From Acidihalobacter ferrooxydans (GTDB lineage: Bacteria > Pseudomonadota > Gammaproteobacteria > DSM-5130 > Acidihalobacteraceae): 64,000 nt of DNA. The translations under genes and the position numbers were made by a program. Below are positions 8,299 to 11,712 of the stretch, one piece after another (the stretch's first letter is position 1; each line of letters opens with the position of its first letter). Location: NCBI RefSeq assembly GCF_001975725.1, contig NZ_CP019434.1, forward strand, positions 3,312,792-3,376,791, written 5' to 3'. The notes under the pieces are model-generated. The model ran no database searches, was not told where the DNA came from, and saw nothing but the letters and a program-made list of their open reading frames with translations.

Positions 8299-11200
8299 AT
8301 GGGCGGCGACGAACAGCACACAACGGCAGCGCCACGGCGGGTGATCAAAATTCGTCGCGACTACAAGGCATGGGTTGCAGACGAAACGCTGGAAGACTAC
8401 GCCCTGCGCTACGCCGCGCGCAGTTTCCGCAAATGGCCCGTGTTCCGTGTCGCCAACACAGCCTTCGGCGCGGTGTCATTCCTGGCCATCGAGGCCATCG
8501 GTGCGACCATGGCGTTGAAATACGGCTTCATCAACACCTTCTGGGCCGCACTGGCCGTCACGGCGATTGTGTTTCTGACGGGATTGCCAATCGCCTGGTA
8601 TGCGGCCAAGTACAATCTCGACATGGATTTGCTCAGCCGCGGCGCAGGCTTCGGGTATCTGGGCTCGACGATCACCTCCCTGATCTACGCCTCATTCACA
8701 TTTCTGCTGTTTGCCATCGAGGCGGCGATCATGGCGCAAGCCCTGAATCTGTATCTTCATGTTCCACTGACTTTTGCTTATCTGATCAGTGCATTCGTCG
8801 TGATACCGCTGGTCAGCTACGGAATCACCTTTCTCAATCGCCTGCAATCCTGGACCCAACCGATCTGGCTGGTGTTGCTGGTGCTGCCTTATATATTCGT
8901 GTTTTCCAGAGAACCGGACTTACTGCATCAACTGACCGAATTCGGGCCGCATGCGGGGCAGTTCAATCTCCTGGCTTTTGGCGCTGCCACCAGCGTAGCG
9001 CTGGCATTTATCGTACAGATCGGCGAGCAGGTCGATTTTCTGCGCTTCATGCCCGAACGCGATTCCGCCGCAGGCAAACACTGGACAGCGGGCGTGTTGA
9101 TCGCCGGCCCCGGCTGGATCGCGCTCGGCACACTCAAACTGCTCGGAGGAGCCCTGTTGGCCTATCTGGCGCTGCGTGCTGGATTCGACGCCGCCCAGGC
9201 AGGCCAGCCAGCCGTGATGTATGCGGTCGGTTTTGGCTTCGGGATCGATTCACAAAGCCTGATCGCGGTGCTGGTACTGCTGTTCGTCGTCGTCTCCCAG
9301 ATCAAGATCAATGTTGCCAACGCCTATGCCGGCTCTCTGGCCTGGTCGAATTTTTTCGCGCGCGTCACGCACAGCCATCCTGGCCGTATCGTGTGGCTGG
9401 TGTTCAACGTGCTGATCGCTTTCATGCTGATGGAAATGGGCATCTTCGACGCGCTCGGCCATGTGCTCGGGCTGTATTCCAACATCGCTATCAGCTGGGT
9501 TGGCGCGCTGGTCGCGGACCTCGTCATCAACAAGCCGCTGGGTCTGAGTCCGCGCGGCATCCAGTTCATGCGCGCCCACCTCTATGACATCAACCCGGTC
9601 GGCACCGGCGCGCTGGTGATTGCCTCGGTGCTCTCGATCGCCGCCTTCAGCGGGATGTTCGGCCCTGTCGCGGAAGCCTTCTCTGCCTTCATCGCGCTGG
9701 GTACTGCGCTGATCACCGCGCCGCTGATCGCCTGGCTCACGCGCGGGCGTTACTACCTGGCGCGTCAACCGGCCCACCCGCCCGGCGGCGTCGCCCGCTG
9801 CGTGGTCTGCGAGAAAGAATACGAAACCGACGATATGGCGCAGTGCCCGGCGTATCGCGGCAGCATCTGCTCGCTGTGCTGCACACTCGACGCACGTTGC
9901 CACGATCTATGCCGCCCCGGCGCGAGTTTCGCCGACCAGTATCTGGTCACTGTGCGCCGGCTGTTACCGAACGCGCTTTCCGCCCGCGTGAACACTCGAC
10001 TCGGCTACTACCTCATGCTGATCAGCAGTGCGGCACTGCTGTTCGCCGCCGTGCTGACGCTGTTCTACGTGCAGCAATCGGATTCCGGCATGGGCGCCCA
10101 AGCCCTGAGCGGCCTGCGCACCGTGCTGCTTGAGCTCTATCTGGCCTTCATGGTGCTGTTTGGCGTCGGCGCCTGGTGGCTGGTGCTGACCGTGGAAAGT
10201 CGCTACGTCGCCCAGGACGAATCCAACCGGCAAACGCACCTGCTGATGAACGAAATCGCTGCGCATGAAAAAACCGATGCCCAACTGCAAACCTCGATCC
10301 AGGCCGCCGAGCGCGCCAATCAGGCCAAGACCCGCTACCTCACCGGCATCAGCCACGAGCTGCGCACCCCGCTCAACAGCATTCTCGGTTACGCGCAGAT
10401 CGTCGAGCACGACCCCAAGGTGCCGAACGAGCGCCGAGAGGCCATGAAGGTGATCCGGCGCAGCGGCGAACATATGGTCTCGCTGCTCGACGGCCTGCTC
10501 GACATCTCCAAGATCGAGGCCGGCAAACTCAGCATCGATGCGCAGGAAATCCGTTTGCCCCAGTTCATCGGTCAACTGGCCGACATGTTCCGCCTGCAGG
10601 CCAGCGCCAAAGGCATCGCCTTCGAGTACGAGACGCAAGGCACGCTGCCGGCACGGGTGCGCGTCGACAAAAAACGGCTCGGCCAGATTCTCATCAACAT
10701 CCTCGGTAACGCGGTGAAGTTCACCGAGCGCGGCGGCGTGACCTTCCGCGTGTTCTACCGCAGCGAGATGACCCGCTTCGAAGTCGAGGATACCGGCATC
10801 GGCTTTACCGAAGAAGACCGCCAACGCATCTTCCTGCCCTTCGAGCGCGGCGCCAATGCCGCGCGCCATGCCGGCAGCAGCGCCGGCCTCGGACTGACCA
10901 TCGCCGGCATGCTCGCCACACTGATGGGTGGCGAACTGACCGCGCATCACAGCGCGAGCGGCGGCAGCCTGTTCCGTTTGCGGCTATACCTGCCGGAGGT
11001 GCATGGGGCGGAGATGGCGCCCAGCGCGGCGCCGTCCCACATCGTAGGCTACGCCGGCCCGGTTCGCCGCCTGCTCCTGGCCGACGACGAGTGGGTGGAT
11101 CGCGAGTTCATGCGCAGCGTGCTCGAACCGCTGGGCTTCGAGCTGGAGCAGGCCGGCTCCGGCGTCGAGGCACTGCGCAAGGCCGCCGGCCTGCGCCCCG

Positions 11201-11712
11201 ACCTCATCCTGCTCGATCTCAACATGCCGGACCTGAACGGCTGGGAGACCGCGCAACTGCTGCGCAGCAACCGCGTCTCGGAGGCCCCCATCCTGATTAT
11301 CTCGGCCGACGTGCAGGAAATCGGCCGCGGCAACACCGCCGGTATCGGCGCACACGACTTCATCCCAAAGCCGGTCGACGTCGACATGCTGCTCGCGCGG
11401 ATCGCCAACAAACTCAAGCTGGAGTGGACCCTGCGTACCCGCGCACCCGAGACGCCCTCCCCGACCAACGCCTCGCTCGCGCCGGCACCGCTCGACATAC
11501 TGCCCGACGCCGGCCTCATCGAACGCCTGCATGGACTCGGCGTAGTCGGCGACATCCAGGGCATTCTCGGCGCGCTGACCGCGGTGGAGGACGACCACCC
11601 TGAACTCGCCCTGTTCGTCGACCGGCTGCGCAGCCACATCGAGAATTTTCGCCTCGACGAATACCTGCAAAGCCTCGAACGCGCCGGAGAACAGCATGCC
11701 GCCCGATCCTGA
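8299..11712 (+). CDS. NCS1-type permease / cysteine-rich / hybrid histidine kinase fusion
   Basis: An 1137-residue membrane sensor. Residues about 1-490 form a complete nucleobase-cation-symport-1 (cytosine/purine/allantoin permease) domain with about 12 hydrophobic segments and NCS1-like stretches such as DMDLLSRGAGFGYLGS. Residues 501-538 hold eight cysteines (C-x2-C-x11-C-x7-C-x2-CC-x5-C-x3-C), likely zinc-binding. Two further membrane segments follow at about 565-625, then HisKA with SHELRTPL (His686), an HATPase domain with DTGIGF and SAGLGLTIA, and a receiver domain with Asp973 in ILLDLNMPD. The role inferred is that transport or binding of a nitrogenous solute by the permease controls the kinase. 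It is divergent from urtA and overlaps the next regulator by 17 bases. The start is the ATG behind GGGACGGA. Confidence 0.9.
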   Translation: MGGDEQHTTAAPRRVIKIRRDYKAWVADETLEDYALRYAARSFRKWPVFRVANTAFGAVSFLAIEAIGATMALKYGFINTFWAALAVTAIVFLTGLPIAWYAAKYNLDMDLLSRGAGFGYLGSTITSLIYASFTFLLFAIEAAIMAQALNLYLHVPLTFAYLISAFVVIPLVSYGITFLNRLQSWTQPIWLVLLVLPYIFVFSREPDLLHQLTEFGPHAGQFNLLAFGAATSVALAFIVQIGEQVDFLRFMPERDSAAGKHWTAGVLIAGPGWIALGTLKLLGGALLAYLALRAGFDAAQAGQPAVMYAVGFGFGIDSQSLIAVLVLLFVVVSQIKINVANAYAGSLAWSNFFARVTHSHPGRIVWLVFNVLIAFMLMEMGIFDALGHVLGLYSNIAISWVGALVADLVINKPLGLSPRGIQFMRAHLYDINPVGTGALVIASVLSIAAFSGMFGPVAEAFSAFIALGTALITAPLIAWLTRGRYYLARQPAHPPGGVARCVVCEKEYETDDMAQCPAYRGSICSLCCTLDARCHDLCRPGASFADQYLVTVRRLLPNALSARVNTRLGYYLMLISSAALLFAAVLTLFYVQQSDSGMGAQALSGLRTVLLELYLAFMVLFGVGAWWLVLTVESRYVAQDESNRQTHLLMNEIAAHEKTDAQLQTSIQAAERANQAKTRYLTGISHELRTPLNSILGYAQIVEHDPKVPNERREAMKVIRRSGEHMVSLLDGLLDISKIEAGKLSIDAQEIRLPQFIGQLADMFRLQASAKGIAFEYETQGTLPARVRVDKKRLGQILINILGNAVKFTERGGVTFRVFYRSEMTRFEVEDTGIGFTEEDRQRIFLPFERGANAARHAGSSAGLGLTIAGMLATLMGGELTAHHSASGGSLFRLRLYLPEVHGAEMAPSAAPSHIVGYAGPVRRLLLADDEWVDREFMRSVLEPLGFELEQAGSGVEALRKAAGLRPDLILLDLNMPDLNGWETAQLLRSNRVSEAPILIISADVQEIGRGNTAGIGAHDFIPKPVDVDMLLARIANKLKLEWTLRTRAPETPSPTNASLAPAPLDILPDAGLIERLHGLGVVGDIQGILGALTAVEDDHPELALFVDRLRSHIENFRLDEYLQSLERAGEQHAARS

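Follow-up and report, generated by a model that had tools for sequence, protein, structure and literature searches.

A family of predicted urea/amide sensors combining an NCS1-type transporter with a hybrid histidine kinase, encoded beside urtABCDE in Acidihalobacter ferrooxydans

Facing the urtABCDE genes of Acidihalobacter ferrooxydans is an ORF that encodes an NCS1-type transporter, an eight-cysteine module, a two-helix membrane hairpin and a hybrid histidine kinase in one chain. This protein is probably a receptor kinase derived from a transporter (a 'transceptor'). It would recognise urea, or short-chain amides close to it, outside the cell and, together with a LuxR-type response regulator, induce uptake genes. 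The ORF lies in a stretch of 64,000 nucleotides (assembly GCF_001975725.1, contig NZ_CP019434.1, positions 3,312,792 to 3,376,791), referred to here as the window. The features of the locus are listed in Table 1.

Table 1. Features of the sensor locus in the window and of the related loci in the sister genomes
Feature	Coordinates	Strand	Evidence or remark
Sensor: NCS1-type transporter / eight-Cys module / TM hairpin / HisKA-HATPase / receiver fusion	8299..11712	+	
NCS1-type permease domain, residues 1-495 (fold about 33-488)	8299..9783	+	AF2 model, structure match, hhalign
Eight-cysteine module, residues 501-538	9799..9912	+	eight Cys invariant in 36 relatives
Two extra membrane helices, residues about 567-633, transporter-kinase linker	9997..10197	+	absent from free-standing relatives
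Histidine kinase HisKA + HATPase_c, residues 677-898	10327..10992	+	Pfam
Receiver domain, residues 926-1035	11074..11403	+	Pfam
Partner response regulator, REC + LuxR/GerE HTH	11696..12568	+	overlaps sensor stop by 17 nt
Predicted operator CATACGTTAAATTACGTATG, dyad CATACGT-N6-ACGTATG	8183..8202	+	perfect 7-base arms
urtA, urea ABC transporter binding protein, divergent from sensor	6689..7957	-	TIGR03407 above cut-off
urtB	5724..6635	-	TIGR03409 above cut-off
urtC	4645..5724	-	TIGR03408 above cut-off
urtD	3890..5065	-	TIGR03411 above cut-off
urtE	3153..3893	-	TIGR03410 above cut-off
ureD, urease accessory gene closing the urt operon	2186..3082	-	PF01774
Free-standing permease plus FmdA, sister genomes	L015:10766-12445, L016:11876-13552, L017:12441-14135		

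The sensor is a single ORF of 1137 amino acids with an ATG start and no internal stops. Pfam identifies a HisKA domain at residues 677-742, an HATPase_c domain at 790-898 and a receiver at 926-1035. The H-box at residue 685, the N and G boxes and the DD/D/K residues of the receiver are all present, and with the adjoining response regulator these parts make up a hybrid histidine kinase two-component system. The extra membrane helices are located at about residues 567-595 and 600-633. The C-terminal extension (residues about 1040-1137, window 11419-11709) gave no match with Pfam. The domain order proposed in the first-pass annotation, with permease, cysteine cluster, two helices, HisKA/HATPase and receiver in one protein, is confirmed; the C-terminal extension, the partner regulator and the palindrome at 8183-8202 go beyond that annotation.

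The five urt genes were identified with NCBIfam models, each above its own cut-off. The real start of urtD is probably internal, near position 4630, as the TIGR03411 match begins at residue 146. Between the ureD gene that closes the operon and the genome's urease alpha gene (C1:117118) there are about 250 kb, counted around the circle. A. ferrooxydans encodes a urease and lacks FmdA. Downstream of the regulator, the ORF at 12635-13069 has no support as a gene from Pfam or NCBIfam. It is followed by an ABC importer with SBP_bac_8 and TOBE_2 parts (polyamine-like, window 13247-17857) and by a further ABC importer of the glycine-betaine type (OpuAC, CBS; window 18628-21605).

The permease part of the window protein has no match in Pfam even at E = 10, and none of 36 aligned relatives matches PF02133 or any other transporter family with this tool. 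Sequence comparison with Pfam, NCBIfam and the PDB likewise yields no direct family match for the permease. An AlphaFold (AF2) model of sensor residues 1-634, built on the 36 relatives (pLDDT 80.8), superposes on CodB with Z 29.8 and an rmsd of 3.6 over 397 residues and on Mhp1 (4d1a) with Z 27.7 and an rmsd of 3.8 over 430 residues. The next-best family is that of the neurotransmitter symporters at Z 22.4. In hhalign, the profile built from 15 permease domains aligns with one built from ten PF02133 proteins over 425 columns, at a probability of 99.5% and E = 3.6e-23. L134, a free-standing relative that is more distant, does match PF02133. Identity to the NCS1 proteins Mhp1 and CodB is 15-18%. 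The NCS1 and SSS families share the LeuT-type fold, and the comparisons favor NCS1: Foldseek scores CodB at 1e-9 versus 2.7e-7 for SiaT (SSS), the best SSS rows reach Z of about 20 compared with 29.8 for CodB, and no SSF match was found by Pfam in the permease of the window protein or of the 36 relatives. The NCS1-type permease recognized in the first-pass annotation, though unseen by Pfam, is borne out by the profile-profile comparison and the predicted structure, which support membership of the NCS1 superfamily through homology and fold respectively.

The permease resembles Mhp1 and CodB in its fold over about 400 residues and in the Asn residues of TM8, which are kept, but differs in lacking a PF02133 match and the Trp stacking pair and in the addition of the cysteine module and kinase. 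The positions aligned with the two stacking Trp residues of NCS1 proteins (137 and 238; TM3 and TM6), which form the aromatic sandwich in Mhp1, are occupied by Leu/Phe and Ile/Val in an alignment of 17% identity that is partly gapped. At that same 17% identity, the Trp sandwich of ring-binding NCS1 proteins is absent from the sensors and the free-standing relatives alike. Pocket residues E141, Q240, E243, Q244, N338 and N341 are invariant, as mapped through this 17%-identity, partly gapped profile alignment, and most pocket residues are the same in the fused and free-standing forms. A polar pocket of this kind, with no aromatic sandwich, appears a better fit for small amides than for rings. 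Of the 76 rows labelled urease or formamidase, 73 have Glu at residue 65 (window 8491-8493); the three formamidase-linked free-standing copies have Gln there and one further copy (L023) has Phe. This position is a possible switch residue between sensor and transporter. A search for urea- versus formamide-specific residues returned positions 303, 402 and 174 as candidates only, confounded by ancestry.

The cysteine module contains residues 501, 504, 516, 524, 527, 528, 534 and 538, and the chain has no other cysteines. All eight are invariant across the 36 aligned relatives, free-standing transporters included. The cluster is part of the transporter, since free-standing transporters also carry it and the closer ones end directly after it, before the two-helix hairpin. 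It is absent from the more distant L134, whose chain stops shortly past the permease. The first-pass annotation had placed the cluster between transporter and kinase as a possible metal or redox input; that view is modified here, the cluster being counted with the transporter. No confident match for the module was found by Pfam, PDB sequence or fold. Modelled alone, it forms short strands and a helix (pLDDT 69.7). Cross-brace zinc fingers (RING/FYVE/PHD) make up many of its fold matches, which are weak, with Foldseek E values all above 0.4 and the best, VIA, at Z 4.1. A structural zinc module is a first guess from this model, and the module could instead act as a redox or metal sensor bringing a different signal. 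By analogy with the twelve-helix NCS1 topology, the module and the kinase would lie on the same, cytoplasmic side. The hairpin comes with the kinase and is missing where the kinase is missing, making it the likely element that couples transporter to kinase.

A genome_contigs scan found at least 585 relatives, of which 80 were kept, almost all from Betaproteobacteria. An even sample of 398 Pseudomonadota species contains 56 with a match, three of these being other NCS1-like transporters that match weakly and one a fragment. By this sample the sensor family is common (56 of 398 species). Nearly every copy in both sets has the same kinase-receiver fusion followed by the same regulator, which is kept with the sensor in 54 of the 56 sampled loci. 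The fusion is conserved in more than 100 independent genomes. An assembly error joining separate permease and kinase genes is excluded because the same fusion recurs in 78/80 loci of the first set and 54/56 of the second. The four loci outside these counts comprise L138 and L139, which have another kinase, and two with no kinase match above threshold in the available DNA. In L138, L139 and L018 (894-1007 aa) the kinase that follows the NCS1-Cys-hairpin sensor is of another type and has no receiver; the sensor unit therefore moves between kinase types. L138 and L139 adjoin fmdA.

Genes for urea or amide use accompany the sensor in nearly all loci surveyed. The urt, urease or fmdA genes lie within about 10 kb in 54/56 sampled Pseudomonadota loci, the remaining two being short contigs, and nearby in 77/80 of the genome_contigs loci. 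Homologues that are never near urea or nitrogen genes, which would have spoken against the first-pass annotation, are not what the survey found. Three layouts recur: urtABCDE opposite the sensor with fmdA behind it; urease or the accessory gene ureJ adjoining the sensor; and urt opposite the sensor with urease genes behind it, as in the window. Species with two sensors carry one copy by urease and the other by urt-fmdA (e.g. L161/L171, L159/L182, L166/L170). The urease/formamidase label switches 5 times across a tree of 87 permease domains, compared with at least 17 times in 60 label shuffles. Several loci also have a porin-like gene before urtA (L020:5977-7113, weak Porin_O_P match), which recalls the amide porin FmdC.

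The region between the sensor and urtA contains a palindrome with the family consensus ATACGTCA-NN-TGACGTAT, i.e. ATACGTCANNTGACGTAT. Of 51 non-redundant regions between urtA and the sensor, 42 contain the core TACG-N8-CGTA, versus 0.23 expected from dinucleotide shuffles. The exact form TACGTN6ACGTA has one copy in the 3.45-Mb A. ferrooxydans genome, in the sensor-urtA promoter region. Elsewhere in the genome there are 17 one-mismatch sites as well as looser TACG-N8-CGTA sites; these are fewer than a control pattern gives and are attributed to chance. In each of three sister genomes the exact form likewise occurs once, between the sensor and a divergent free-standing permease. Among held-out regions, the motif is present upstream of urtA genes not adjoining a sensor (10/23) and upstream of fmdA (8/56), and was not found upstream of ureC (0/56), urtE (0/91) or the regulator (0/146). 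No operator was found in L138 and L139, with their other kinase type, which would follow if the site is that of this LuxR-type regulator. Urease-adjacent sensors of the Comamonadaceae mostly have no good motif match next to the sensor. A sigma-70 scan of the intergenic region of the window detected no consensus promoter and nothing above chance. The LuxR-type regulator would bind this palindrome; in an analogous system the regulator CrbR likewise uses an inverted repeat (PMC5715377).

The three sister genomes belong to a neighbouring genus. Their sensors are 70-71% identical to the window protein over the first 634 residues and do not face urt. They face a free-standing copy of their own permease (53-54% identical), which has the same eight cysteines and no kinase and is followed by FmdA. 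Urease and FmdA are both present in these genomes, with one urease alpha frame short and apparently broken. A published Acidihalobacter comparison reports urtABCDE in A. ferrooxydans only, urease with no recognised urea transporter in the other three Acidihalobacter, and a frameshifted ureC in A. yilgarnensis (PMC9062700). The urt and urease pattern of the window and sister genomes agrees with that comparison, and the sister genomes seem to be the species described with urease and no urea transporter. Their free-standing permease is a candidate amide/urea importer. A further free-standing copy (L023) has an amidase alongside and an allophanate hydrolase about 3 kb off, and L134 is neighboured by a C-N hydrolase and AmiC/AmiR-like genes.

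From this context we infer the ligand of the sensor and propose a signalling chain. Urea (or an amide) would enter the transporter pocket and alter its conformational cycle, and the hairpin would relay the state of the transporter to HisKA and so activate the kinase. Phosphate would then pass from His to Asp and on to the LuxR-type regulator, either directly or by way of the fused receiver. Bound at ATACGTCA-NN-TGACGTAT (8183-8202), the regulator would induce urtABCDE-ureD and its own sensor operon. In the sister species the same sensor and operator would serve the free-standing permease and fmdA. The ligand in A. ferrooxydans is most likely urea because the genome has urease and urt and no formamidase; in the sisters a formamide-type ligand is likely, given that sensor and operator serve a free-standing permease and a formamidase. 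Ammonia, as the product, or a broader amide could also be the ligand. We assume that the regulator activates rather than represses, given its LuxR type and by analogy with comparable inducible systems. Such a urea/amide chain fits with the fmd system of Methylophilus methylotrophus, where formamide and urea both act as inducers (PMC10781810). The earlier suggestion that the sensor sets urea import is strongly supported by the neighbourhood and the conserved operator.

Nucleobases, allantoin or hydantoin had been proposed as ligands on the strength of the NCS1 domain. The catabolism of allantoin yields urea, and a sensor answering to such compounds could induce urea uptake downstream of their breakdown, in keeping with the NCS1 fold of the permease. 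This is a very unlikely reading and the proposed ligand class is not upheld: the neighbours are urt, urease and fmdA, with no purine or hydantoin genes in the selection of neighbours scanned, formamidase or amidases adjoin the free-standing relatives, and the sandwich positions are not Trp. It is unlikely, if somewhat less so, that what the transporter domain reads is not urea but nitrogen status, such as ammonia or the transport flux of a general nitrogen source, with urt and fmdA induced as scavenging systems. The target genes are indeed nitrogen-scavenging genes, ammonium represses the M. methylotrophus fmd cluster (PMC10781810), and Ks-Amt5 is an ammonium transporter that acts as such a sensor (PMC5764959). 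However, a wider regulon would be expected from a general status sensor and the genome holds one exact operator; the NCS1-type relatives, moreover, occur in amide operons and not with ammonium genes.

The protein might also be mainly a transporter with the kinase as a minor or regulatory appendage, i.e. a transport-coupled flux sensor, which overlaps the preferred reading and differs in how the signal is read. CbrA retains histidine transport (PMC7096432, PMC13022988), and the fused and free-standing forms here have most pocket residues in common. A dedicated ABC importer adjoins the sensor, however, and Glu at residue 65 in nearly all sensors, against Gln in the three formamidase-linked free-standing copies, hints at a difference between the forms, leaving the flux sensor improbable. 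A receptor for urea or short-chain amides is the reading preferred here. More tentatively, and with some doubt, the sensor may belong to an undescribed NCS1-like branch with an invariant eight-Cys module that handles small acyclic amides and urea. Some of its members would be free-standing secondary transporters encoded in formamidase/amidase operons, and others the sensor part of a urea/amide two-component system that is widespread in Proteobacteria and has an operator of its own, the ligand having switched between urea and amide several times along with the adjoining catabolic genes.

Fusions of transporter and kinase in one chain are already known from the SLC5/STAC histidine kinases CbrA, CrbS and RpuS (PMC5715377, PMC9100948, PMC7096432, PMC13022988) and from Ks-Amt5; the NCS1 version is new within the literature searched. 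CrbS resembles the window sensor as a hybrid kinase with a receiver, and its regulator CrbR is LuxR-type and uses an inverted repeat. CrbS and RpuS also control genes for the uptake and use of their own ligand (PMC5715377, PMC9100948, PMC7096432, PMC13022988). Unlike these proteins, the window sensor has an NCS1-type transporter, with the eight-Cys module and hairpin in the place of STAC, a ligand class that is urea/amide by context and the operator ATACGTCANNTGACGTAT. Ks-Amt5 of Kuenenia is similar in that the transporter domain for a nitrogen compound has been recruited as a kinase sensor (PMC5764959), but its transporter family is unrelated and it was described from one anammox protein, compared with 56/398 sampled Pseudomonadota species here. 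The Methylophilus fmdCABDEF cluster likewise combines formamidase with ABC uptake of amides/urea and is formamide- and urea-induced, whereas the paper on it names no more than a putative positive regulator and mentions no transporter-kinase sensor (PMC10781810). A literature search, with most subscription journals outside its reach, found neither an NCS1-kinase fusion nor a urt-fmdA sensor described, and within the literature searched no paper was found on a dedicated membrane sensor kinase for urea in Proteobacteria. In one genome paper of 2026, a hybrid kinase without a name and a LuxR regulator appear next to urtABCDE and fmdA, purely as annotation.

The sensor family gives a sharp prediction for a regulon and its operator. 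The free-standing permease offers a candidate amide/urea importer for three urease-positive species described as having no urea transporter. In the sister genomes, fused and free-standing versions with a similar pocket adjoin each other, which makes them a natural system for testing how the cycle of a transporter is turned into a kinase signal. In soil and water, external urea is a main source of nitrogen and, if the proposed function is correct, this sensor would switch on genes for urea uptake or amide breakdown in many environmental bacteria.
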